Origin: Oribacterium sp.
Lineage (GTDB): Bacteria; Bacillota_A; Clostridia; Lachnospirales; Lachnospiraceae
Assembly (NCBI GenBank): GCA_017940955.1
Contig: JAGAXP010000048.1
Span: 1 to 11,551, forward strand
Direction of reading: 5' to 3'
DNA: 11,551 nt
In this document: positions 197-11,551 of the stretch, one piece after another
Layout: the number at the start of each line of letters is the position of its first letter
Numbering within the stretch: the stretch's first letter is position 1
Position numbers and translations under genes: made by a program
Notes under the pieces: generated by a model
Databases searched by the model: none
What the model saw: only the letters and a program-made list of their open reading frames with translations
Told to the model about the DNA's origin: nothing

Positions 197-3091
197 ATGC
201 ATGATGATCTGAAGCTGGAGACCAGGGACAAGGTTTTACAGAAAATGAGCCGGAACGGGGCTGTGGAGCAGAATCTGAACCGTGGGACTTCACAGAATGT
301 AAGCAGCCGCATAGCGGAGATCACGTTTGAGAAAAGCCCGGCTCCTGGAAGTGATATGGAGTTTGGCAGGGGAGCAAAGGGAGCGGCAGGAGCCGGCGGC
401 TCCGGTAGTTCCCACAGGAGTTATAGCGGAACTGCAGGGCAGGGTACGGATTATGCCGGCGGCGGACAGGGCGGAGCACCGGGGAATTCTTATGGTGGGA
501 TTTCCGGTAATGCGCAGGGAACATCGTATAGCGGCGATAGCATTGGCGGCTTTCGTGGAGGCTCGCAAGGCGGATATCAGGGTGATGTGACGGGAGAGTA
601 TTCCAGTTCATCACAGAGCGGTTCGCAGGGCAGTATGCCATATAGTGATCATGAGGCGTATCTGGACAGTCTGTTACAAAAGGCCGGAGTTGATACCGGG
701 CATGGAGCGGATGGGTTTACGGATTCCGGAAGTTCACACCATAGCAGGAACCGCAGATATCGGGCGGAAGCGGGCAGACCGTTTGAAACGCAGAGGATGC
801 AGGATTATCAGATGTCCGGGGACAGTTTTGATATCTCAGGACACCGAACAGTCGGAGGGCAGGGCGCATCAGAGTCAACTGAAGAATCTGTCTCACACGA
901 ACAGACAGGCGGGGAACAGGCTGGATCTTATCTGTCTGAAGGTGGAAACGGCGTTTTACAGGAGAGCCGGTCAAGTGCATTCAGGATAGACGGCGGCAGC
1001 AATGCCGGAAGGAGTCTTGCGGAAAAGGAAGCCTATAAAAAGCGGATAAGCCGGGCAAGCGTCCGTCAGAATGCAATGCATGAAAAGCCTGTGGGACAGA
1101 GGATTTCATCGGACAGAGGCACAGCGGATACTGCCGGTAGTCTGTCTGACAACAGTGGTATTTCTAAACGTTCCGGCACTAAAAAGACCATGACCGCCAT
1201 CAGGGAGGGTCAGAAGGCAGGAACGGTCTTAAAGCCTTTCAGTGGTGCTGCGGACAAGCTGAGGGAAACGGCGCTGTCATCTGCCCATGAGAAGATACAC
1301 GAATCCGAGGACGAAAATTCGGGTGTCCAGGCGGCTCATGAAGCTGAAATCCAGGCGGAGCATGTATTACAGACCGCAGGGCGGAAGGCGGTTGATGCTG
1401 GTAAAGGTGCGGCAACTAAGCGCAGAGGGAGGCTCAAGTTCGATGATGAAGAGCCGGCGGAGGAACTGAATACCGGAAGGAAAGCTTCAGAGCAGGCACA
1501 GGGCGAAAGAAACAGGCTTCAGCTTGGAAACAAGGCGGATACAGAGTTTCAGAAGTCCGGCGGCAGTGAAAGAAAGAGCGGGGCGACAGATGATAGAAAG
1601 AGTGTTGATAATGGAAAAACTGTTTCGGATTCCCAAAGCGTGAAAGCTCCAAAAGATGCTGTGCAGGTATCGAAGGATGCCCAAACACAAGGCGCAGAAA
1701 CACTTGCCGGTCAGTCTGAAAAATCAAGTCGGTTAAGCTTTTCATCAAACAGGGCGGAGAATGTATCTCAGGTGCCAATGGAAGCCGGGAAGTCCGGAAA
1801 TTCAGCACTGGCAGCAAAAAAGCAGAGCGGCGGAAAGCTTTATTTCGGGGAAAAGCCAAATGTAGATGCAGGTAAGAAAGCAACAGACCTTAATAAGCAG
1901 TTCCAGAAAAAGCATATCAAAAGAGAGTACGCTGCTATGCTGAAAGCTGAAAAAAGCAGCACAGGTGCCGGGACGAAAGCATCCTCAAAAGCAGCGGAAG
2001 CGGTCAAAAAGGGAGCCGGAAAACTTAGGGACGTACTCGCAGGTGTCATAAAGAAAAACTATGGTGTGCTGATCGCTCTTGGTGTTATGGGTGTTTTTTT
2101 CATCATGATCTTAAGCGCATCCGGTACGGTGATGTCCATGTTTTCAGAGGCGGGGGAGTCTTTTGTGGGTTCTACATATTTGGCTGCGGATGATGATATC
2201 ACGACCAATGACACAGCATACGAGGAAATGGAGGCTGAGCTTCAGGATCAGATCGACAGCATTGAAGAGGACTATTCCGGTTATGACGAGTACCGATACC
2301 AGGTGGACGAGATCAGTCATGATCCCTATGCCCTTGCATCCTATTTTACGGCAATTTACGGGAATTATCAGGCTGCGGATGTGGAGGCAGAGCTGCTTCC
2401 GCTGTTTCAGGAGCAGTACACCCTGACTTTGAATGAGGTAGTTGAGACAAAGACAAGGACAGTGACAGACCCGGATACCGGAGAGGAGTCAGAGGAAGAA
2501 TACGACTGGTACGTGCTTGAAGTTACGCTGACAAACGCAGGCATTGACACTGTAGCGCAGGCTCATATGAATGAAAACCAGAAGATGCTTTACGGGGCAT
2601 ACATGGTATCAAAGGGAAACCGCCCATATCTGTTTGGAGACGGGGCGGTTCCGGGGAATGTGGCAGGCGGCGGACTTTCTTATGATATACCGCCGGAGGC
2701 ACTGGAGGACGAAGCCTTTGCAAGGATGATAAATGAGGCGGAGAAGTACCTTGGCATGGAGTATGTCTGGGGAGGAAGCAGCCCGTCCAGCGGTTTTGAC
2801 TGTTCAGGATTTGTAAGCTGGGTCATAAACCACAGCGGGAACGGATGGAACGTGGGCAGGAGTACGGCAAACGGGCTGATGGGGCATTGTACCCATGTTT
2901 CTTCATCGGAAGCGAAGCCAGGGGATCTGATCTTTTTTGAAAGGACCTATAACACCAGCGGAGCGAGCCATGTGGGAATCTATGTCGGTGACGGGATGAT
3001 GATCCACTGCGGAAACCCGATCCAGTATACCTCAATAAACAGCAACTACTGGCAGAATCACTTCCTCGGATTCGGCAGGATTAGTGATTGA
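197..3091 (+). CDS. CD1108-type membrane-anchored NlpC/P60 peptidoglycan hydrolase of the ICE transfer apparatus
   Basis: This 964-residue protein probably cuts cell-wall peptide stems so that the conjugation channel can cross the wall. Residues 1-56 form a charged N-terminal segment. Residues 57-150 are very rich in Gly, Ser and Tyr. A long polar, Lys/Ala/Ser-rich disordered stretch runs to about 620. One membrane segment lies at about 622-645, so the N-terminus should be cytoplasmic and the C-terminus outside. Residues 660-840 hold an acidic, coiled and beta-rich linker typical of this ICE family, with a HDPYALASY motif. From 844 to the end is an NlpC/P60 fold with an intact Cys-His-His triad: Cys869 in DCSGF, His925 in SHVGIYVG and His937 in MIHCGNP. 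The start has GAGAGG at 183-188, 8 bases upstream. Membership of the hydrolase family is secure; the very long N-terminal disordered part is unusual. The true substrate bond is not visible from sequence. Confidence 0.9.
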   Translation: MHDDLKLETRDKVLQKMSRNGAVEQNLNRGTSQNVSSRIAEITFEKSPAPGSDMEFGRGAKGAAGAGGSGSSHRSYSGTAGQGTDYAGGGQGGAPGNSYGGISGNAQGTSYSGDSIGGFRGGSQGGYQGDVTGEYSSSSQSGSQGSMPYSDHEAYLDSLLQKAGVDTGHGADGFTDSGSSHHSRNRRYRAEAGRPFETQRMQDYQMSGDSFDISGHRTVGGQGASESTEESVSHEQTGGEQAGSYLSEGGNGVLQESRSSAFRIDGGSNAGRSLAEKEAYKKRISRASVRQNAMHEKPVGQRISSDRGTADTAGSLSDNSGISKRSGTKKTMTAIREGQKAGTVLKPFSGAADKLRETALSSAHEKIHESEDENSGVQAAHEAEIQAEHVLQTAGRKAVDAGKGAATKRRGRLKFDDEEPAEELNTGRKASEQAQGERNRLQLGNKADTEFQKSGGSERKSGATDDRKSVDNGKTVSDSQSVKAPKDAVQVSKDAQTQGAETLAGQSEKSSRLSFSSNRAENVSQVPMEAGKSGNSALAAKKQSGGKLYFGEKPNVDAGKKATDLNKQFQKKHIKREYAAMLKAEKSSTGAGTKASSKAAEAVKKGAGKLRDVLAGVIKKNYGVLIALGVMGVFFIMILSASGTVMSMFSEAGESFVGSTYLAADDDITTNDTAYEEMEAELQDQIDSIEEDYSGYDEYRYQVDEISHDPYALASYFTAIYGNYQAADVEAELLPLFQEQYTLTLNEVVETKTRTVTDPDTGEESEEEYDWYVLEVTLTNAGIDTVAQAHMNENQKMLYGAYMVSKGNRPYLFGDGAVPGNVAGGGLSYDIPPEALEDEAFARMINEAEKYLGMEYVWGGSSPSSGFDCSGFVSWVINHSGNGWNVGRSTANGLMGHCTHVSSSEAKPGDLIFFERTYNTSGASHVGIYVGDGMMIHCGNPIQYTSINSNYWQNHFLGFGRISD

Positions 3092-3139
3092 GAAAACTGT
3101 ACGGATTCTATGAATGAAGCCGGCAGGGAAAGGAGAGGA

Positions 3140-3574
3140 ATGAACCCAAAGATTGAACGAGTAAGGGAGGATATAAAACGCACGGAGAAGAAGATAAGGG
3201 AGCTTGATGAGTACCTGAAATCCCTTCGTATCCGTGAAAAGCAGCTCTGTGACGATGAGCTGATCAAAGTAATGAGGGGCATGGCAGGAAAAGACGGGGA
3301 TGTGATCGCTCTTCTGGATGCTTTCCAGAAAAGCCATGAGGACGACGGGGCATCGGATTTGCCCGGAAAACCCGGGGATAATAAGAAGTCGGTGGCAACA
3401 AAGCCTGATACCGGAAGGGTTCCGGACAAACATGAGAATGCCGGCAGGGAGAAACAGCAGGATGTGAATGGGGGTATGGTTCATCCTGAAAAAACAGCCA
3501 TCGGTGCAGATGGCATTCACGGAGAAATTCATGCCGGGATAAACAGAAGCCCCGCAGGTACTGATAATAACTGA
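3140..3574 (+). CDS. DUF4315-type small coiled-coil protein of ICE
   Basis: I place the start at ATG 3140, not the in-frame ATG at 3110. It is preceded by the purine-rich GGGAAAGGAGAGGA, and the protein then begins MNPKIERVREDIKRTEKKI, which is how DUF4315 proteins usually begin. The result is 144 residues. Residues 1-40 form a highly charged helix likely to be a coiled coil (KIRELDEYLKSLR), and a second helix follows (DDELIKVMRGMAG, then a VIALLDAFQKS stretch). From about 75 to the end the chain is polar, Gly/Asp/Lys-rich and probably disordered, longer than I expect for the family. There is no signal peptide or membrane segment, so it should be cytoplasmic. In ICEs of this type it sits between the NlpC/P60 and DUF4366 genes, as here. 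Its molecular role is unknown; a small structural or regulatory partner of the secretion channel is plausible. Confidence 0.82.
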   Translation: MNPKIERVREDIKRTEKKIRELDEYLKSLRIREKQLCDDELIKVMRGMAGKDGDVIALLDAFQKSHEDDGASDLPGKPGDNKKSVATKPDTGRVPDKHENAGREKQQDVNGGMVHPEKTAIGADGIHGEIHAGINRSPAGTDNN

Positions 3575-3591
3575 AAATACGGAGGTAAACA

Positions 3592-4557
3592 ATGCGAAGC
3601 AAAACAATAATGAAGTTTCTGACCATGCTTGTGACCTGCTCACTGTTTATCGGTGGAAGCACAATGACATCTTTTGCATACGGAAACGGGGATGAGAATA
3701 CAAAACAGACGACGGAGGACAGTACCAATGATAGCTCCATAGGCGCAGATACATCCACGGTTTCAGAGGATGAGAGCCATTGGAAGTATGATGATATCCA
3801 AAAAGATGGGGAAGAAAAGGAAGACGATAGTATAACCGGCAGTTCTTATGGGGGCTCTCTTGCCAGGGATGATGATTCTCTGGATGTGGAGTGGAGCATC
3901 ATTGAAAAGCACGATCCTGACGGTGATGGGATTCTTACACCCGTGGGAAACCTTTCGCTGGTGGATGACCTCACCAAAGAAGAGGCGGAAAACCTCCAGT
4001 ACATGACCGTAAAGACCAAGAGCGGAAATATCTTTTACCTGATCGTGGACAGGAGCGGGGATGAGGACAATGTATATTTCCTCAACATGGTAGATGAATC
4101 AGACCTGATGGCTCTTATGGACGAAGAGACACAGGAAAAGTTCAAAGAAGCCACTTCTTCGGACGGCGAGGTAAAAGAGACGGAGGGCTCAACCGATACG
4201 GTTCTTTTTACAAGCCAGGATAAGGAAAAGGGTGCTGATGAAGCGGAAGATAAGGAGGATGCAAAAGAAAAGAAGCAGACCGGAGCCAATCCCATCGCTC
4301 TGCTTGTGATCTTCGGCATTATCGGCGCTGGCGTTGCAGGCGGCTATTACTACTTTAAGATAAAGCCCCAGAAAGAGCAGCCCACTGTGGACGAGGACAT
4401 GGAGTTTTATGATGATGAGGACTATGTGGCCGAGGAGACTGTGAATGAGGATCAGGAGGACGGAAATCAGGATGCCGGTGATGATCCGGATAATGACGAG
4501 GAGAAGGAAGAGTATCATCCCGGCGTAGATGATTTTTCAGATGAATGCGTAGACTGA
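3592..4557 (+). CDS. DUF4366 (CD1107-type) secreted, membrane-anchored ICE protein
   Basis: This 321-residue protein has a signal peptide (basic MRSKTIMK, a hydrophobic core, probable cleavage after Ala29 in TSFA-YG). An acidic, low-complexity stretch follows. The family core at about 115-180 shows LTPVGNLSLVDDL, then TVKTKSGNIFYLIVDR and NVYFLNMVDESDL. After an acidic/Lys linker there is one membrane helix at about 235-255 (from NPIALLVIFG), then a cytoplasmic tail of about 65 residues that is almost entirely Asp/Glu. The core would therefore face outside. GGAGGT at 3581-3586 lies 5 bases before the ATG, and the gene follows the DUF4315 gene by 17 bases, so the two are co-transcribed. A DPDGDG motif just before the core resembles a calcium-loop half but lacks the final acidic residue. 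The function of the family is unknown; its steady linkage to VirB4 and NlpC/P60 genes argues for a part in the transfer channel. Confidence 0.88.
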   Translation: MRSKTIMKFLTMLVTCSLFIGGSTMTSFAYGNGDENTKQTTEDSTNDSSIGADTSTVSEDESHWKYDDIQKDGEEKEDDSITGSSYGGSLARDDDSLDVEWSIIEKHDPDGDGILTPVGNLSLVDDLTKEEAENLQYMTVKTKSGNIFYLIVDRSGDEDNVYFLNMVDESDLMALMDEETQEKFKEATSSDGEVKETEGSTDTVLFTSQDKEKGADEAEDKEDAKEKKQTGANPIALLVIFGIIGAGVAGGYYYFKIKPQKEQPTVDEDMEFYDDEDYVAEETVNEDQEDGNQDAGDDPDNDEEKEEYHPGVDDFSDECVD

Positions 4558-4595
4558 TCTTTTATGAGGAAAACAGCATATGGTGATCGTTTGCA

Positions 4596-4630
4596 GGGGA
4601 GTTCCGCCTTAGTGTGGTTCTCCCCTTTTT
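4596..4630 (+). terminator. Rho-independent terminator after the DUF4366 gene
   Basis: GGGGAG (4596-4601) pairs with CTCCCC (4620-4625). Inside, a TT/TT internal loop is followed by a second helix, CCGC (4604-4607) with GTGG (4614-4617, one G-U pair), and a six-base loop. Five T residues follow at 4626-4630. It starts 38 bases after the DUF4366 stop and separates the core transfer block from the surface-protein block. Confidence 0.75.
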
Positions 4631-4647
4631 ACGTTTGCAAAGGCAGG

Positions 4648-4681: not shown

Positions 4682-4711
4682 GGATAAAAATACATTTCAG
4701 GAGGAGAATGC

Positions 4712-6667
4712 ATGTCTAAGAGATTTTTTGATGATGAAGACACTTATGATACTGATTTTGATGATGAAAAGGAAGATGTGGAAACAAGACCGGCACCTGT
4801 GAAAGGGAAGGGCCTCGGTTCCAAGTTTGTAATGGGAGCCTGTGCCATTGCCCTGATCGGGGCAGTTGCCGGGCTTGGCTCTCTTGGCATTTCCGCCATG
4901 CAGGGCGCATCGGCAAAAAGGCAGATGCAGAAAGCAGTGGATGAGTACATTAAGAGTGCGGATACCGGCATGGAAGAGCGGATCAGCGAAGCGATTGATG
5001 CCTATGCGAAAGAAAACCAGCCTGTAAGCTTGAAAGACCTTGTGGGGGAAGAGGGGGAAGCGGAGCTTATGGACTCCATCCTTTCCGACCTTGGTCAGAT
5101 GGAGCTTACGGATACGCAGAAGGAGCAGCTGTCAGAAGCCCTTACGGAAATCTTTTCTGAAGATGGTTCTTTTACCATTTCCGGAAAAGCTGTTTTCAGC
5201 GACGAGTCAAAGGCATACCTTACAGATCTGATCTCACAGGAGCTGGCTAAGACCCTGGTGGAATATTACGGTGAGGGCAGCGATGTAGAGGGACTTATGA
5301 CTAAGTATGCCGACCTTGAAAAGACCGTGAAGGAGATCGTGTCAACTCAGACAGGAAAGGCAAACATTACTTACAGCTTGACGGACTCCGACAGGGACAA
5401 GATCAAGGAATCCGTCATTTCCGCCCTTGGAAATATCAAGGGGGCAGATGGAAAGAACGGATCTGACGGAAAGGACGGGCTCAACGGTAAAGACGGCGTG
5501 GATGGCAAGGACGGAAAAGATGGGGACGATGGAAAAGACGGCGAGAACGGAAAGGATGGAGAGGACGGTGCTGATGGCAGGGATGGCCGTGACGGCAGGG
5601 ATGGAATCGATGGAATAGACGGTAAGGACGGAAGCGACGGAAAAGACGGCCGTGACGGGAAAGACGGTTCCGACGGATACTCTCCCAGAAAGGGTGTTGA
5701 CTATTTCACGGAAAGCGAGATCGACAGCTTTGTAAAGACCATAGAGGGAAATGTGAAAACCTACTTTGACAGGCATGAGCTGGACGAGATCGCTGCCATG
5801 ACCGAATCCATCAAGCAGGATGTGCTGGAGGTGTTTACCAGTTCCGCTGATAACCTGGAGATCACTATTACTGATAATGAGAAGGCGGTTGATACCATCA
5901 ATGATGCCATTGGCACCGGGGAATCCTCTGAGGGCGGTAACAGCAACGTCTACAGCAATACAACCGTTTATAAGAAGGGCGACATTATCGTAAGGGATGG
6001 AAAAATCTACCAGTGCCTTGAGGATATGGAGAAATCCGGGGCATGGGATCCTTCCAGGTGGAGCGAGACGGATCTTGTGACCGTGAATAATTACTACAAT
6101 ACCCACATCTCGGAAACGAAGGAAGAGATCACAAAGGAGTACACCGGTCTTGTGGGCTCTTTGGAGCAGAAGGTTACGGAGCTTGTAAATAAGGTGGTCT
6201 CCGGCCTTACTCAGTCCATTGAGAATACAAATAAGGAAACCAGTGAGAGACTCGGTAATCTGGAGAACAGCACCAACTCCAAGCTTGATAACATGGCAGA
6301 GAATGCTGACAGCAGGATGGATGCCATTGAGTCCGGGACGAATGACAGGCTTGATTCCATGCAGTCTGACACGGATGGAAAGCTTGACAGCTTAAAGTCT
6401 GATACGGATCAGAAGCTCGGGGATCTTCAGAGTGACACCGATGATAAGATCACAGCCCTCGGCTCTACCGTGGAGGAGAAGATCGGAAACCTTTCCGACA
6501 GCATGAATGCTGCTCTGGATAAGTTGAATGCTTCTCTTCTTGAAAAAATCGGGGCAGTTCAGACGGATGTGGATAAGCTTAAGGAGAACCAGCCGGATTA
6601 TGAGCTGACTGACAACGGCGACGGAACCTACAGACTGGACATCACGAATCCTGTGGACGGCGAATGA
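4712..6667 (+). CDS. Membrane-anchored collagen-like fibre protein with phage-tail-like and carbohydrate-binding-like modules
   Basis: This 651-residue protein is built in clear blocks. Residues 1-30 are acidic. Residues 31-38 are basic and lead into one membrane helix at about 39-62, so the rest should lie outside the cell. Residues 63-243 are acidic and helical. Residues 244-324 are 27 uninterrupted Gly-X-Y triplets, mostly GKD, GRD and GSD. A DGYSPRKGVDYFTESEI linker follows, of a kind common in phage tail and baseplate proteins. Residues 412-452 carry an aromatic YKKGD...GKIYQC...GAWDPSRW pattern resembling CBM5/12-like modules. Residues 508-628 are eleven 11-residue repeats, probably a right-handed coiled coil, followed by a short polar tail. 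The start has AGGAGGAG at 4699-4706. I infer a trimeric surface stalk with a sugar-binding part. No catalytic site and no LPXTG sorting signal are visible. The exact family is not recognised as a named one. Confidence 0.85.
   Translation: MSKRFFDDEDTYDTDFDDEKEDVETRPAPVKGKGLGSKFVMGACAIALIGAVAGLGSLGISAMQGASAKRQMQKAVDEYIKSADTGMEERISEAIDAYAKENQPVSLKDLVGEEGEAELMDSILSDLGQMELTDTQKEQLSEALTEIFSEDGSFTISGKAVFSDESKAYLTDLISQELAKTLVEYYGEGSDVEGLMTKYADLEKTVKEIVSTQTGKANITYSLTDSDRDKIKESVISALGNIKGADGKNGSDGKDGLNGKDGVDGKDGKDGDDGKDGENGKDGEDGADGRDGRDGRDGIDGIDGKDGSDGKDGRDGKDGSDGYSPRKGVDYFTESEIDSFVKTIEGNVKTYFDRHELDEIAAMTESIKQDVLEVFTSSADNLEITITDNEKAVDTINDAIGTGESSEGGNSNVYSNTTVYKKGDIIVRDGKIYQCLEDMEKSGAWDPSRWSETDLVTVNNYYNTHISETKEEITKEYTGLVGSLEQKVTELVNKVVSGLTQSIENTNKETSERLGNLENSTNSKLDNMAENADSRMDAIESGTNDRLDSMQSDTDGKLDSLKSDTDQKLGDLQSDTDDKITALGSTVEEKIGNLSDSMNAALDKLNASLLEKIGAVQTDVDKLKENQPDYELTDNGDGTYRLDITNPVDGE
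5441..5683 (+). repeat. Collagen-like Gly-X-Y tract, 27 triplets
   Basis: Codons 244-324 of the 4712 gene encode 27 consecutive Gly-X-Y triplets without a break. The third position is Asp in nearly all of them, and Lys, Arg, Ser or Ile often fill the second. At the DNA level this gives imperfect 9-bp units around GGAAAAGAC and GGTAAGGAC. Glycine codons vary (GGA, GGC, GGT, GGG), so the tract is probably kept by selection on the protein, not recent slippage. There is no proline in the tract, so stability would have to come from charge pairing of Lys/Arg with Asp, as in known bacterial collagen-like proteins. Confidence 0.93.
6233..6595 (+). repeat. Eleven tandem 11-residue (hendecad) coiled-coil repeats
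   Basis: Codons 508-628 of the 4712 gene divide into eleven 11-residue units. The clearest are SGTNDRLDSMQ, SDTDGKLDSLK, SDTDQKLGDLQ and SDTDDKITALG. A basic residue followed by Leu, Met or Ile recurs at unit positions 6-7, and an aliphatic residue at position 10. The units near the 3' end (STVEEKIGNLS, DSMNAALDKLN, ASLLEKIGAVQ) diverge but keep the spacing. An 11-residue period is typical of right-handed or nearly straight coiled coils, which are often trimeric or tetrameric. Confidence 0.85.
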
Positions 6668-6686: not shown

Positions 6687-9215
6687 ATGAAGAAAAGAAC
6701 AGTCATTACACGCATCGGCACCTTTCTCCTTGCCGGTGCGCTCATGGTGGGAGGCGCTTCGGCGTCTTCCACCGCTTATGCGGAGAACGGAGCAGACATT
6801 AAAATTGTAGAGGCGTCTATGCCGGAGTTTATGTCACAACCCGGGCAGGGCAGCGTTACTGTTTCATCAGGTGATGCAGATATCGGTGCGTCACAGGATA
6901 AGTTACAGTCTGATGCGGATACTGTTGGGGATGTTGCAGGAGTGGAAGAATCGGATGGTGGTTCCTCAGAGAAGGAAGCAGATGAAGCGATACCGGATGA
7001 TAGCGCTGCGGAAGATAAAGCATCTTCTGATGGCGGAGTATCGGAGGATAATGGAAAAGAGGATAAAGCCGTTTCTGATGACGGAACATCAGCCGATGGA
7101 ACTACCGTAGATAAGGATATTTCTGATAACAGTGTTGATAATTTCTCGGAGGATGGCGGTCCTGACAATAGGCTGACAGATACCAAAGGCTTGGAAGAAT
7201 CGGACGCTGATATGGGTTCAGACACCGATGAAAGCCTATCTGATTCTGATGAGGCAGGCTTTGATGATGGGTGGAATGAAGTTGACGAGTCTGACCTGCC
7301 ACCTGATGAGTCGGTCATAGATACGATTGACTTTCATATCGAGGAGATTGAGGAATTATCTGAGGATTCAGTGCTTGATCCCATAATTGAGTCCAAGGTG
7401 GTTCTGCCTCAAAGAGTGCTTATGGCTAATGCAGATGCAAAGAGCACGGACAGGGTGGTAGGCGACCTTATCGACCTTACGGATATCTATACAGGAGAGG
7501 CGGCAAGCCATGACTGTGAGAATTACCTGCGGGAAAACCATGATGGAGATCACCATTGGAAGGAATGTGCCGTATGCGGGAAAAAATATGACATAGAACA
7601 CCATGAGTTTACCACTATGGGAAACGATTCCTGCGGCTGGTGGAATGCAGGGGAGACACGGTACTGCGAGGAGTGCGGTTATATCACGGTATATAAGCGA
7701 TCTCATGTGGATGATACATCTCAGTGGTACACAAGGCCGGATCAGAAATACCATTATCACAGATGTACCTACTGCAATTCCTATGGAAGCGTGTCGGAAT
7801 CCTGCAGGGATGCAAAAGGAAATGTGATCAGCTGTGACGGTGGGACCTGTGCGGTCTGTGGTTATACCTATGGAAAAGGGCATACTTACTTCAACAGCGC
7901 ATATGGGGAGTCAGGAACCATAAATTGCCATAAATGCGGTGAAATGATGCTCACATATGACAGCAATACCGGATACTGGAGTGGGGATAACACCTACAGA
8001 GCCTCTATGCGCATCACCGGCTGGAATGAGGAAATCTTTGGAAAGGATGCTGCGGCACTTGCGGAAACACTTTCTGTAGGCGGAACAGGCGGCGGAGTAA
8101 ACGGTGAGGTATCAGACCTCAAAACCTCTGTAAAAAACGGGTGCATCTATGCTTCCTGTACACTGACCTTTCCTTATGAGGAAAGGGATGCCTCCTATGT
8201 AAATGATGTATGGAGCGTACAGCCTTATTCTACGAGGATATCCCTTGCCTGCAATGGAGGAAGGATCGAAAACCGTGCGCCGGAGATCAAGTCGGCAAAT
8301 ATATCATACGCTTCAAAGAATGGCGAATATTCTACAAAAGCGACGCTTACCGTTACCTGTACGGACAACTGGGTTTATGAGCCGAACTATGTACAGGTGA
8401 GGCTTGTTGATGATAAGAAGGAACCTGCATCAGACTGGGTGACCTGTGCCAAAAGTGGTACGACCTTTTCCCAGACTCTTGATCTTGTGACTGAGGCGAG
8501 TGGAAGCAAGACCTTTTATGTGCAGGCACAGGATGCAGGAGGAAATGTCTCCGAAAAGCAGGTGACGCTTGCGAACCTGGATTCCAGGGCTCCGGTTGTC
8601 ACATCCGCACTGACAACCACAGAGGACTGGTCGAAAATGAAGACCATTACATTTACCTGTACGGATGAAGGTGTCGGGGATGTGCAGATTGCCTTTAATA
8701 ACCAATCGGATTATCGGAAGGCGGACTTTGACGGAACCATCTATAGCCGATCCTATACCTTTACCGGCGATGTGTATGGAAGCGCAAGGGCGGCGGTATA
8801 TTTTAAGGACGGGGCCGGGAACGTAACTACGGAGTTTGTGGAGATTTACAACTTGGATAACACAGAGCCGGTGATCTCCATGACGGATGTATCCGATGCC
8901 TTTAACGCATCGGGTGAGGCATACGGATGGAATGTTAGGGCAGGGGGAAGCGATGATAATGCAAAACTCTCCAAGACAGGTTCCGGTATTGCCGGTTATG
9001 CCCTGACAAGGGATGATGCCGAACCGGAGGACGATGCATATCAGGCAGATCAGACCCTCTTCCTTGGAAGATCAGGAAAATATTATCTCTGGATTAAGGA
9101 CGGAGCCGGGAACGTGACCAGGAGCGATGACCGTATCGTGATCCATTCGGATTATTATTTCAACGGAAAAGGGTTCAAAAAGATTGTCGCAAGCATTGAA
9201 AAGAAGGAGGACTGA
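6687..9215 (+). CDS. Secreted acidic protein with five CxxC units and three Ig-like modules
   Basis: This 842-residue protein has a signal peptide (MKKRTVITRIG, a hydrophobic core, probable cleavage after Ala32 in TAYA-ENG). Residues 33-250 are dominated by Asp, Ser, Glu and Gly, like a flexible surface stalk. Residues 275-420 hold five CxxC pairs (Cys294/297, 327/330, 360/363, 388/391, 414/417) with nearby His residues, the first unit reading DHHWKECAVCGKKY. These could bind metal or form disulfides. Three beta-rich modules follow at about 531-634, 635-725 and 726-842, each ending near an AGNV motif (DAGGNVSE, DGAGNVTT, DGAGNVTR), typical of bacterial Ig-like domains. There is no C-terminal membrane helix or LPXTG, so retention on the cell must come from a partner. 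GGAGGGAG at 6674-6681 sits 5 bases before the start, 19 bases after the collagen-like gene, so the two are co-expressed. Function is not recognised; an adhesin or fibre partner is inference. Confidence 0.85.
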   Translation: MKKRTVITRIGTFLLAGALMVGGASASSTAYAENGADIKIVEASMPEFMSQPGQGSVTVSSGDADIGASQDKLQSDADTVGDVAGVEESDGGSSEKEADEAIPDDSAAEDKASSDGGVSEDNGKEDKAVSDDGTSADGTTVDKDISDNSVDNFSEDGGPDNRLTDTKGLEESDADMGSDTDESLSDSDEAGFDDGWNEVDESDLPPDESVIDTIDFHIEEIEELSEDSVLDPIIESKVVLPQRVLMANADAKSTDRVVGDLIDLTDIYTGEAASHDCENYLRENHDGDHHWKECAVCGKKYDIEHHEFTTMGNDSCGWWNAGETRYCEECGYITVYKRSHVDDTSQWYTRPDQKYHYHRCTYCNSYGSVSESCRDAKGNVISCDGGTCAVCGYTYGKGHTYFNSAYGESGTINCHKCGEMMLTYDSNTGYWSGDNTYRASMRITGWNEEIFGKDAAALAETLSVGGTGGGVNGEVSDLKTSVKNGCIYASCTLTFPYEERDASYVNDVWSVQPYSTRISLACNGGRIENRAPEIKSANISYASKNGEYSTKATLTVTCTDNWVYEPNYVQVRLVDDKKEPASDWVTCAKSGTTFSQTLDLVTEASGSKTFYVQAQDAGGNVSEKQVTLANLDSRAPVVTSALTTTEDWSKMKTITFTCTDEGVGDVQIAFNNQSDYRKADFDGTIYSRSYTFTGDVYGSARAAVYFKDGAGNVTTEFVEIYNLDNTEPVISMTDVSDAFNASGEAYGWNVRAGGSDDNAKLSKTGSGIAGYALTRDDAEPEDDAYQADQTLFLGRSGKYYLWIKDGAGNVTRSDDRIVIHSDYYFNGKGFKKIVASIEKKED
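7509..7937 (+). repeat. Cys/His-rich region with five CxxC units
   Basis: Within the secreted 6687 protein, residues 275-417 hold CAVC, CEEC, CTYC, CAVC and CHKC at intervals of 33, 33, 28 and 26 residues. Most are followed by Gly, and His clusters lie beside the first (DHHW and EHHEF) and the third (HYHRC). Further single Cys residues lie at 276, 316, 373 and 383. The spacing suggests a degenerate tandem repeat of small zinc-ribbon-like units. Such HxWxxCxxC units are seen in Firmicute extracellular proteins; whether they hold metal is not known. Confidence 0.75.
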
Positions 9216-10402
9216 TGGCTATGGCAAATATGAGTTTTGATGAATTTAAGGAAACCATTGTGGAGGAAATCAAGGCATTCCTGCCTGAAAAGTATGAGGA
9301 TGTGGATATCAGAATCAATACAGTACAGAAAAATAATGAAGAGCTTACTGGTATTACGATCAGAAGCAGCGAGAGCAATATTGCCCCGAACATCTATCTG
9401 GATAGCTATTATGAGAGTTATCTTGATGGGGAATCCATGGAGGATATCATGCAGAACATCGCGGATGTGCGTGTGGAGCATGAGATCGAAAAGCCCCTTG
9501 CCGTGGATATGATCACGGATTATGAAAAGGCAAAGGACAAGGTTATGCCGAAGATCGTGGGAATGGAAGGGAATGAAAAGTATCTGGAGGACAAGCCTTT
9601 TACCCGGATGGAAGACCTAGCGGTGGTCTATTACGTTGACATGGGAAGGCTTGGCGGCGGTGTCATGAGTTCCCCTGTTACGGAAAATCTTATGGAGACT
9701 TGGGGAGTATCAACGGAAGAACTTCATCAAACGGCGCTTTCCAACATGGAAGCCCAGTCGGTATCATCTTTTAAGTCCATGCATGAAAAGATGATGGAGA
9801 TGATGCTGCCGGATATGGTAGAGCGTTTCGATGGAGATAAGGATGCCGCCCGAGAAGCAATTTCCGATATGGTTCCTCCGGATGACGGCAATATGTTTAT
9901 TCTTACAAATCAGGAGAAGCTTAACGGAGCAACGGCTCTTCTTGATACGAAGATCATGGGCGAGATTTCTGAAAGGTTCGGTGAGAACTTCTTTATCCTC
10001 CCGTCCAGCCTGCATGAGGTTCTGATTGTACCGGAAAAGGAAGGCATGGAGCTTTCCGTTCTTGAAAACATGGTACAGGAAGTGAATGCCACGCAGGTGG
10101 CACCGCAGGACAGGCTTTCAGACCATGTTTATAAATATGATGCGCAGGAGCAGTCCGTATTCCGTGCGGACAGGGAAGCGGAGCATATGGCTGAAAAAGC
10201 GGCGAAGCTTGAAGCAGCTGATAGAACGGGGGAAAGGTCTGACCGTGTGGGAATGCCTGAAAAGAATGCTGCTGAAAAAGGCCAGGAGAGGAAACGTACC
10301 TCCGTAAAGGCAAGACTCGCTGAAAAGCAGAACATCGTTGCATCCACGGCAAGAAAAGACAGACCGCAGGCTATGGGCAGGGTGGCTGAGGCAGCTATCT
10401 GA
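9215..10402 (+). CDS. DUF5688-type cytoplasmic ICE protein
   Basis: This protein is 395 residues from ATG 9215, or 393 from the in-frame ATG 9221. The first start shares its A with the stop of the preceding gene (TGATG), and AAGGAGG at 9204-9210 serves either start (4 or 10 bases away), so translation is probably coupled. It has no signal peptide or membrane segment. The N-terminal part (SFDEFKETIVEEIKAFLPEKY), the SNIAPNIYLDSYYE region, the TRMEDLAVVYYVD strand and the PPDDGNMFILTNQEKLNGA then FFILPSSLHEVLIVP stretches match my memory of DUF5688 proteins, which are frequent in clostridial ICEs. From about residue 310 onward the chain is basic and disordered (KAAKLEAADRTGERSDR and further Lys/Arg runs), which might contact nucleic acid. 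The function of the family is unknown. Its place directly after the secreted protein and before the MASKYELVSAL gene ties the surface cassette to the ICE backbone. Confidence 0.82.
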   Translation: MAMANMSFDEFKETIVEEIKAFLPEKYEDVDIRINTVQKNNEELTGITIRSSESNIAPNIYLDSYYESYLDGESMEDIMQNIADVRVEHEIEKPLAVDMITDYEKAKDKVMPKIVGMEGNEKYLEDKPFTRMEDLAVVYYVDMGRLGGGVMSSPVTENLMETWGVSTEELHQTALSNMEAQSVSSFKSMHEKMMEMMLPDMVERFDGDKDAAREAISDMVPPDDGNMFILTNQEKLNGATALLDTKIMGEISERFGENFFILPSSLHEVLIVPEKEGMELSVLENMVQEVNATQVAPQDRLSDHVYKYDAQEQSVFRADREAEHMAEKAAKLEAADRTGERSDRVGMPEKNAAEKGQERKRTSVKARLAEKQNIVASTARKDRPQAMGRVAEAAI

Positions 10403-10426
10403 CCATAATTACAGGAACAGAGGACA

Positions 10427-10457
10427 GGGCGGTGGAGGCAATCCGCCGCCCTTTTTT
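10427..10457 (+). terminator. Strong Rho-independent terminator just upstream of the last gene
   Basis: GGGCGGTGGA (10427-10436) pairs over ten positions, one of them U-G, with TCCGCCGCCC (10442-10451) around a GGCAA loop, and is followed by six T residues (10452-10457). It lies 24 bases after the DUF5688 stop. The next ribosome binding site (AAAGGAG, 10461-10467) begins only 3 bases after the T-run, so there is no room for a promoter between the two. The downstream gene must depend on read-through or on a promoter upstream of this hairpin. Confidence 0.88.
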
Positions 10458-10471
10458 CGGAAAGGAGATCT

Positions 10472-11551
10472 ATGGCATCAAAATATGAACTGGTATCCGC
10501 CCTGGCAGAAAGCACGGCGCAGGACTTGTCCCGTGACCCTGCTGCGTGGATGCGTTTTCTGGATACCGCAGGCAGGATGTACCGGTATCCTTTTATGGAC
10601 CAGCTTTTGATCCATGCACAGCGTCCGGATGCTACAGCCTGTGCGGAGCTTGAAGTCTGGAATGAAAAGATGAACTGCTGGGTCAACAAAGGCTCTAAGG
10701 GAATCGCGCTGCTTACGGAGAGGAACGGCTGGCCACGCCTCCGGTATGTCTTTGATGTATCGAACGTGCATCCGGCATGGAATGTGGGAAGGCTCCCATA
10801 TATCTGGCAGATGCGTGAGAGGGATGAGGGTGCAGCTATCGCTCAGCTTGAAAAGACCTATGGGAAAACAGACGAAAACCGCAGTTTAGGGTACAGGCTT
10901 CTAGAAATCGCAGACCGGATTGCGGAAGATTATTCGGGGGATCTGTTACCGGACTTAAAGGACAGGCTGGAGGACAGCCTTCTTTATGGCCTGGATGACC
11001 TGAATCTTGAGACCCGCATTAGGGATACTCTGAGGGATTCCATCGGGTACATGCTTTTATCACGCTGCGGACAGGACACGGCAGACTATGATTTTTCATT
11101 TGAATACCTGCAGGATTTTAATAATCTGCAGGTAATGTCCGTACTTGGAAATGCGGTTTCTGAAATGACGGAGCCGCTCCTCATGGAGATCGGCAGGACA
11201 GTGCGCATCACGGAACAGCAGATAGCACGGCAGGAAATCAGGGAAGATCGTGCCTTGGAAACTGCCGGAAACCGTGACAATGCAGGACAGGAAAGAATCG
11301 TCAACGAAGTCTCTGAGCGACAGAAAGAGGCAGGTGCGGGGAATATATCACCATACGCAGAAAAAAACGAAAATGGCCTTGCAAACGGGCAAGGGAATGA
11401 ATATAATGCTTTAAAGCGTGAAAGCAAGCGGCAAGGTGATATTTCCACCGATGATTATGTAAAGGGCGAAAGCGCTGAAACCAATGAGGCCATTACAGAA
11501 GAAGTCAAAGGAGGGAATGATCATGGAACTGACTTACATGCAGAGCGGGGA
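10472..11551 (+). CDS. N-terminal part of the large ICE helicase-type protein, or a short version of it; runs off the window
   Basis: The frame is open from ATG 10472 to the last base (360 codons, no stop). AAAGGAG at 10461-10467 lies 4 bases upstream of the ATG. The N-terminus MASKYELVSALAESTAQDL, then PFMDQLLIHAQRPDATACA (40-58) and a CWVNKGSKGIALL stretch (69-81), match the start of the very large helicase/methyltransferase-type proteins of clostridial ICEs. The QLLIHAQ...W...GSKG pattern loosely recalls the N-terminal domain of ArdC-type antirestriction proteins. A second conserved stretch lies at 211-244 (FNNLQVMSVLGNAVSEM, then EPLLMEIGRTVR), and YNALKRES at 311-318. After about 250 the chain is polar and probably disordered. 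No helicase or methylase motif is inside the window. Because another start opens at 11523 within this frame, the gene may end soon after the window as a stand-alone N-terminal domain protein. Cytoplasmic; role in transfer or protection of DNA is inference. Confidence 0.8.
   Translation, partial: MASKYELVSALAESTAQDLSRDPAAWMRFLDTAGRMYRYPFMDQLLIHAQRPDATACAELEVWNEKMNCWVNKGSKGIALLTERNGWPRLRYVFDVSNVHPAWNVGRLPYIWQMRERDEGAAIAQLEKTYGKTDENRSLGYRLLEIADRIAEDYSGDLLPDLKDRLEDSLLYGLDDLNLETRIRDTLRDSIGYMLLSRCGQDTADYDFSFEYLQDFNNLQVMSVLGNAVSEMTEPLLMEIGRTVRITEQQIARQEIREDRALETAGNRDNAGQERIVNEVSERQKEAGAGNISPYAEKNENGLANGQGNEYNALKRESKRQGDISTDDYVKGESAETNEAITEEVKGGNDHGTDLHAERG
11523..11551 (+). CDS. Possible start of a TnpV-like gene, cut by the window end
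   Basis: ATG 11523 is preceded by AAAGGAGGG (11507-11515) with a 7-base spacer, one of the best ribosome binding sites in the window. It is in a different frame from the 10472 gene. The nine complete codons read MELTYMQSG, followed by GA, which begins an Asp or Glu codon. TnpV proteins, as I recall them from clostridial mobile elements, begin with a similar LTYxxxGDYLLP pattern. Only nine residues are visible, so the match is suggestive only. TnpV proteins are about 110-130 residues, named from Tn4451-type transposons, with no firmly known function. Confidence 0.38.

Follow-up and report, generated by a model that had tools for sequence, protein, structure and literature searches.

A collagen-like protein beside integrative and conjugative element genes in Oribacterium sp. 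is a candidate surface adhesin

We analysed an 11,551-nt stretch of Oribacterium sp. DNA (contig JAGAXP010000048.1; the window), in which an intact and uninterrupted open reading frame (ORF; positions 4712–6667, + strand) encodes a 651-residue protein, here called the fibre protein, next to transfer genes of the kind carried by integrative and conjugative elements (ICEs). The protein joins an acidic head and one hydrophobic segment to a Gly-X-Y stretch, a module resembling carbohydrate-binding modules (CBMs) of the CBM5/12 type, and a coiled coil of 11-residue repeats. It is probably a surface adhesin, although attachment in mating is difficult to tell apart from attachment to surfaces. For the narrower proposal, that it is a sortase-independent adhesin in an adhesin slot of ICEs, a fibre that holds glycans or recipient cells, belief and doubt are in balance. 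A role in mating is plausible. The gene and its parts are as follows (window positions).

4699 to 4704, + strand: ribosome-binding site AGGAGG of the fibre gene, read from the sequence
4712 to 6667, + strand: fibre gene, 651 amino acids, open frame, member of a family of 11 protein clusters
4712 to 4819, + strand: acidic head, residues 1–36, presumed cytoplasmic (sequence)
4820 to 4891, + strand: hydrophobic segment, residues 37–60, presumed uncleaved signal anchor (sequence, alignments)
4892 to 5440, + strand: conserved helical domain, residues 61–243 (alignments; helices in a low-confidence model)
5441 to 5683, + strand: 27 Gly-X-Y triplets, residues 244–324 (triplet count; Pfam Collagen, 52 bits)
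5675 to 5710, + strand: GYSPRKGVDYFT linker, residues 322–333 (sequence; motif also in the phage-tail-like proteins P0013–P0017)
5711 to 5911, + strand: helical segment, residues 334–400 (low-confidence model; first half conserved in the family)
5945 to 6067, + strand: CBM5/12-like module, residues 412–452 (PF02839, 27.6 bits on a 61-residue piece; model; fold matches)
6101 to 6586, + strand: hendecad coiled coil, residues 464–625 (lag-11 periodicity in 465–625)
6587 to 6664, + strand: C-terminal beta hairpin, residues 626–651, likely tip (conservation; model strands 629–634 and 640–645)

The AGGAGG lies 7 bases ahead of the ATG of the fibre gene. Asp or Glu makes up 12 of the first 24 residues, as expected from the acidic head of the initial annotation; from the sequence we infer that this head is cytoplasmic and that the hydrophobic segment anchors the protein in the membrane. 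No conserved signal-peptidase motif was seen by eye after this segment in the family alignments. For the helical domain no relative was found, as neither residues 1–242 nor their profile matched Pfam, PHROG or the Protein Data Bank (PDB) at E <0.01. The 27 Gly-X-Y triplets reported earlier form an unbroken tract that scores 52.0 bits with Pfam Collagen (cut-off 27.2), so that the protein qualifies by sequence as a bacterial collagen-like protein with a predicted triple helix. Eleven 11-residue repeats had also been described: the periodicity holds, with a lag-11 identity of 0.24 over residues 465–625 versus a shuffle mean of 0.08 (0 of 1000 shuffles as high), but the count is about 13 hendecads, in 13 in-register blocks of 11 whose first residue is hydrophobic in 12. 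At the C-terminus, the motif ELxDNGDGTYTLxIT is conserved in 8 aligned rows, and this piece scores 18.0 bits against CFSR, under the cut-off of 27. The C-terminus shows no LPXTG-like motif and no hydrophobic tail and is modelled as a beta hairpin. Pfam gave no match to a thioester domain at E up to 0.1, and neither Pfam nor the sequence revealed a SpaA or ester domain. A long antisense ORF (5342–6106) looks to us like a by-product of the repeat. As the ORF, the triplets, the CBM score and the 11-residue period were all recovered, the original list of modules was right.

The linker had been assigned to a phage-tail type. Its motif, G[YK][TS]PxKxxDYFT, is present in all 11 family members, and a looser form, G[YKHV][TS]Px[KR]..DY, occurs in two to eight copies in each of five other proteins (P0013–P0017; E 4e-8 to 1e-3), every one of which matches PHROG tail families. 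Because the motif recurs in these five proteins, the assignment is probably right. In a profile check of the linker and CBM region, a 144-residue piece covering both reached 24.8 bits with CBM_5_12, below the cut-off, and on its own matched no PHROG tail family. Across 50,697 phage records, tblastn with a 45-residue query returned only E values of 3 to 5, the whole fibre protein returned nothing at E 1e-5, and the CBM piece alone gave weak matches in 82 records, the lowest E among the 20 listed being 0.005, to Vibrio phage baseplate proteins. PHROG tail-fibre matches of the fibre protein fall mainly over the collagen stretch.

On a 61-residue query the CBM_5_12 profile scored 27.6 bits, above the cut-off. 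The best fold matches of the CBM model (mean pLDDT, the predicted local distance difference test score, 65), all at E >0.1, were the phage Milano receptor-binding complex, phage 7-7-1 tail fibres and the ChiA1 chitin-binding domain (1ed7; rank 4, probability 0.82, E 0.23). Among the 10 CBM-bearing family members, the first conserved aromatic position is Trp in nine and Phe in one, and the second is Trp in all 10. The profile score on the short piece, together with these weak fold matches, agrees with the CBM5/12-like module proposed at the outset. That module had also been suggested to be a receptor-binding tip, a suggestion we do not uphold, because it lies mid-shaft, with a helical stretch on either side, and the end of the protein carries a conserved beta hairpin, predicted at low confidence.

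A search space of about 5.8 billion proteins yielded a family of 11 protein clusters (P0001–P0011, P0001 being the window protein), none with a name given by its source. The parts follow the same order in all of them except P0011, the one member without a CBM, which retains shaft and tip, and P0008, which stops before the C-terminal cap. The alignments share the membrane segment, a helical domain of ∼180 residues, the linker and, where present, the C-terminal motif. Collagen triplets number, from P0001 to P0011, 27, 24, 19, 27, 13, 13, 9, 12, 18, 23 and 18. The distance from the end of the CBM to the cap, measurable in 8 of the 11 members, is 167, 178 or 189 residues in six, thus varying in steps of 11, and 119 in P0009 and P0010. 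Such register-keeping changes of length in both repeats are as expected of a working spacer, and a design of spacer plus binder would fit the triplet-wise collagen, the 11-wise coil and the loss of the CBM with shaft and tip kept. From textbook rises per residue, with 3 nm added for the CBM, we calculated a fully extended length from collagen start to coil end of about 62 nm for the window protein and about 46–63 nm across the family (P0008 being cut short). If fully extended, a fibre of ∼62 nm would be long enough to cross a Gram-positive wall.

The window holds the following further features around the fibre gene.

197 to 3091, + strand: CD1108-family NlpC/P60 protein, 964 amino acids (NF045974 conju_CD1108, 189.1 bits, cut-off 100; NLPC_P60, 89.7 bits)
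3110 to 3574, + strand: DUF4315 protein, 154 amino acids (PF14193, 31.0 bits, cut-off 27; no PHROG match)
3592 to 4557, + strand: CD1107-like mobile element protein, 321 amino acids (PF14283, 126.6 bits)
4595 to 4631, + strand: hairpin with T run, probably a terminator or attenuator, in the gap that separates CD1107 from the fibre gene (fold of 4588–4640)
6687 to 9215, + strand: Cys-rich protein of 842 amino acids, presumed exported, candidate partner (19 bases 3′ of the fibre gene)
9215 to 10402, + strand: DUF5688 protein (PF18941, 312.6 bits; start overlaps the stop of the 842-residue gene)
10426 to 10452, + strand: terminator-like hairpin after DUF5688 (11 pairs, 8 of them G-C, then a T run)
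10472 to 11551, + strand: first part of a larger ORF that is still open where the window ends (62.5% identity to a portion of a 2543-residue open ORF in locus L050)

By their families, the CD1108, DUF4315, CD1107 and DUF5688 neighbours constitute an ICE transfer region, as had been claimed, and the stretch looks like part of a self-transferring element of the CD1108/CD1107 type, which we take to be CTn4/Tn1549-like. CD1108, DUF4315 and CD1107 lie upstream of the fibre gene, in that order, and DUF5688 and the large ORF downstream. These neighbours are of ICE type rather than phage tail genes, CD1108 alone having PHROG tail matches; the other five neighbour genes gave no PHROG match, and the ORF from 10472 matched no family in Pfam, NCBIfam or PHROG. 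Over residues 559–961 the CD1108 protein has its best PHROG match, to the phage minor tail family phrog_329 (154 bits, E 1e-44); the span takes in the CD1108 region and NlpC/P60 and points to a possible phage link of a conjugation protein. The match of the CD1108 protein to the curated conjugation family NF045974 is the higher (189.1 bits). The 842-residue protein has a signal-like start and a Cys-rich domain containing CxxC, with no Pfam match over the cut-off. Because of the 19-base gap, the overlap of stop and start, and the terminator-like hairpin that follows, the fibre gene, the 842-residue gene and DUF5688 appear to form one transcription unit.

The ICE context of the fibre family comes from this window, with one addition from a second lineage. 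P0012 (307 residues) starts with a fibre CBM that is 95% identical to that of P0009 over 62 residues and runs straight into an 842-type Cys-rich domain (51% identity over 247 residues). Be it a true fusion or a product of assembly, this protein suggests that fibre and 842-type genes are neighbours in another lineage too; it is the sole support for their linkage and is silent on ICE genes. P0012 and P0007 both lie on contigs of which the longest is 8521 bases, and these may be one contig.

We compared the place after CD1107 with that in other loci. Of 391 genomes of the class, 60 matched CD1107, 47 of them over the cut-off. The compared set of 41 loci consists of 40 of the 41 best CD1107-like matches plus L001 and L003, less L034, which equals L003; the remaining one of the 41 best matches (G643), weaker matches and L002 (a 3.8-kb contig) lie outside it, and several loci are from the same genome. 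CD1107 was found by blastp in 39 of the 41; L043 and L045 (SpaA-like ORF), without CD1107 by blastp, were left unclassed. A topoisomerase gene is the first ORF downstream of CD1107 in 18 of the 39, lies later in 12 and is nowhere in the stretch in nine. Downstream of CD1107, four of the 39 carry a large exported surface protein (SpaA or DUF11) together with a sortase; a 308-residue multi-segment protein of L056, flagged as exported, was not counted as an adhesin. In L001 and L003 the surface protein directly follows CD1107 and precedes the topoisomerase. Pfam detected SpaA and thioester domains in the proteins of L003, L030 and L049, and DUF11 repeats in that of L001. The L030 protein is a 1653-residue ORF directly after CD1107 (6868–11826, − strand) with thioester, SpaA and sortase domains in one chain, which, if the assembly is right, would be an adhesin fused to its own sortase. 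L050 has the order CD1108, CD1107, topoisomerase, DUF5688 and large ORF, with 46.9% (DUF5688) and 62.5% (large ORF) identity to the window, which has no topoisomerase between CD1107 and DUF5688. The surface-protein slot of some relatives and the missing topoisomerase suggest that the window, too, uses the place after CD1107 for a surface cassette, with a different kind of protein. Beyond their last hydrophobic segment, the CD1107-like proteins (window, L001–L055) end in a short acidic tail that in many cases contains aromatic residues and is possibly a docking tail. A run of at least six Gly-X-Y triplets was found in one of 513 ORFs of at least 80 residues in 42 stretches, namely a run of seven in ORF 1 (732 residues, CD1108-type) of L053.

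Relatives of the fibre were also sought elsewhere. Based on the family alignment, two peptide patterns for GTDB r220 contigs and two for IMG/VR confirmed no relative, and no CD1107 relatives were found in IMG/VR. Twelve Borrelia plasmid records recovered by tblastn were rejected as repeat similarity, their Bdr repeats matching the coil only. Relatives of the 842-residue gene occur in five of 387 genomes from the same family as G001. In three stretches from two of these five genomes, nothing but the 842-type gene matched the genes of the window, the L003 reference set or the fibre family. Collagen genes gave 37 matches in 28 CD1107-bearing genomes, none near CD1107 by eye in a cross-check that left out the L001 contig; where both lie on one contig, the closest pairs are separated by about 0.45 and 1.5 million bases, in assemblies that are often fragmented.

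Overall, the slot comparison points to an adhesin that serves mating or surface attachment. In the model that we prefer, the fibre protein would be a type II membrane protein whose trimers form a fibre on the cell surface. Outward from the cell, an acidic cytoplasmic head and one membrane segment would be followed by a helical base and a rod of collagen triple helix, then by a short helical stretch, the mid-shaft CBM5/12-like glycan-binding module, the hendecad coil and a beta-hairpin cap. It would occupy the place after CD1107 where some relatives have sortase-linked thioester/SpaA or DUF11 proteins, and the CBM and the tip may tether the donor to recipients or to surfaces coated with glycans, perhaps together with the 842-residue protein of the adjacent gene. 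A bolder version, which we regard as doubtful, is that a conjugative element has domesticated a phage-tail-type fibre as an organ of recipient recognition, where related elements use thioester adhesins anchored by sortase. The fibre would be a trimer with a membrane anchor and a collagen shaft; its CBM, in mid-shaft, would bind GlcNAc (N-acetylglucosamine)-containing wall glycans of the recipient, and the variable shaft would set its reach. If true, this would be a collagen-built counterpart of the sex pilus in Gram-positive conjugation. Gram-positive conjugation systems, according to the parts of PMC12857230 consulted, encode no pili and often rely on wall-anchored adhesins. As they have no pili, little is known of how these elements select recipients and keep hold of them. 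If one slot alternates between thioester adhesins and a collagen/CBM fibre, one could test whether exchanging adhesins alters which recipients are chosen, and phage-tail parts would be tied to conjugation.

Several observations weigh against the preferred model of an adhesin in an ICE slot. The slots of the 41 other CD1107 loci showed no collagen gene, so that the conservation beside ICE genes for which the initial annotation proposed a survey lacks support. The slot itself is firm only in L001 and L003, because the stretches of L030 and L049 contain no topoisomerase and, although the L030 protein directly follows CD1107, that of L049 is the fourth ORF after it. The gene also seems to be rare. 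Among 397 sampled genomes the fibre family gave five weak partial matches (best E 3.1e-4), which we rejected as relatives: they have no collagen stretch and no ICE-type neighbour and by eye reflect chance or a head plus hydrophobic segment. Further samples of 391 and 394 genomes gave none, an empty result that is weak for want of a positive control, in samples that may overlap. The window contains neither a relaxase nor an integrase gene, and a strong hairpin (4588–4640; −21.7 kcal/mol, z −4.6), which a simple terminator scan does not list at 4595–4631, sets the fibre gene apart from the CD1108–CD1107 genes, as for cargo. On the protein side, the CBM_5_12 match of the whole protein (residues 414–448) reaches 21.8 bits, below the cut-off of 26.2, and the full-length model is poor (pLDDT 41.3). 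Two unrelated proteins of the sampled family also have an acidic stretch before a hydrophobic segment, so the head is not special; because unrelated proteins share such stretches, we rejected the acidic motif common to the fibre head and the CD1107 tails as evidence of docking.

The same hairpin, in that it separates the fibre gene from the transfer genes, is what one would expect of cargo of the element, namely a host surface protein that travels with the ICE and binds mucus, food or fungal glycans for colonisation, with no role in transfer. CBM5/12 is a chitin-binding type of fold, and the same idea has been put forward for the CTn1 protein CD0386 of C. difficile. Of the four surface proteins downstream of CD1107, however, three are of the thioester type, as in pLS20 conjugation (PMC8092201, consulted in part), and by this analogy we consider cargo possible, though the lesser expectation. 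A part of the transfer machine, such as a wall-spanning scaffold docked by its acidic head, or an exclusion factor that repels redundant donors, would share with the adjacent CD1107-like protein its one hydrophobic segment and acidic stretch, and CD1107 proteins have acidic tails. None of the other 41 CD1107 loci showed the gene, which such machines can thus do without, and unrelated proteins of the sampled family have acidic juxtamembrane stretches too, so this explanation is improbable.

The PHROG tail-fibre matches, mainly over the collagen stretch, the phage-tail-type linker motif and the phrog_329 match of the CD1108 neighbour (E 1e-44) could instead mark a prophage tail-fibre remnant that landed in an ICE and has no cellular role. 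Yet the frame is intact, 11 related clusters keep the same order of parts, the conserved N-terminal domain is without phage relatives, the whole protein finds no phage record at E 1e-5, CD1108 scores higher with NF045974 and the other five window genes lack PHROG matches; nor were homologues with the fibre N-terminus found inside phage tail operons. We consider a remnant very improbable, and equally so a misread topology in which the protein stays in the cytoplasm or is cleaved and secreted. An AxA-like motif does follow the hydrophobic segment in P0001, but by eye it is not conserved in the family, and the bacterial collagen-like proteins known to us are surface, spore or phage proteins.

An adhesin remains our preferred reading, and adhesins as a kind are known from conjugative elements. 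In the conjugation operon of pLS20, a class II thioester adhesin is needed for efficient conjugation (PMC8092201), and C. difficile CTn1 and CTn7 carry the CnaB-type sortase substrates CD0386 and CD3392, CD0386 being seen as accessory and as possibly acting together with the host (PMC3158075, PMC5569036; sources available in part). The initial annotation knew of no described conjugative element with such a fibre. Surface adhesins in general are known from ICEs and conjugative plasmids, but in the portions of PMC3158075, PMC8092201 and PMC12857230 consulted they belong to the CnaB, thioester or polymer-adhesin types and are not collagen fibres. Among the papers listed from a literature with few subscription papers, including parts of PMC1949102, PMC8950961, PMC13188886 and PMC3486910, there was no report of a collagen-like conjugation fibre, and the word collagen does not occur in the main text of PMC12857230; this does not establish that such a fibre is absent from print.

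Among known systems, the TIE adhesins (TIE_pLS20 p34 and the proteins of L003, L030 and L049) are, like the fibre protein, long stalked surface proteins of Gram-positive conjugation regions, and those of the three loci are likewise encoded downstream of CD1107. The fibre differs from them: it lacks thioester, SpaA and ester domains as well as a sortase signal, and its stalk is of collagen and coiled coil, with a presumed N-terminal membrane anchor. CD0386 and CD3392 are also ICE-carried surface proteins, but they are SPKTG sortase substrates with CnaB repeats, annotated as collagen-binding and not collagen-like (PMC3158075, PMC5569036, in part). PrgB, or aggregation substance, is a conjugation adhesin that acts on polymers (PMC12857230, PMC7726212, in part); unlike the fibre, it is LPXTG-anchored, with a polymer adhesin domain and no collagen. 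Scl1/Scl2 and Lcl share the Gly-X-Y stalk, yet the NCBIfam Scl/Lcl models match the collagen stretch only (64.8 bits with the Scl2 model versus a cut-off of 325), and anchor and other domains differ. Phage collagen-like tail proteins (PHROG 1806, 5073 and 6320) have collagen rods as the fibre does, and the phage Milano and 7-7-1 structures contain CBM5/12-like folds that match the fibre CBM model at E >0.1. From phage tail proteins, the fibre protein is set apart by the absence of a whole-protein phage match, its presumed membrane-anchored N-terminus and its ICE-type neighbours.

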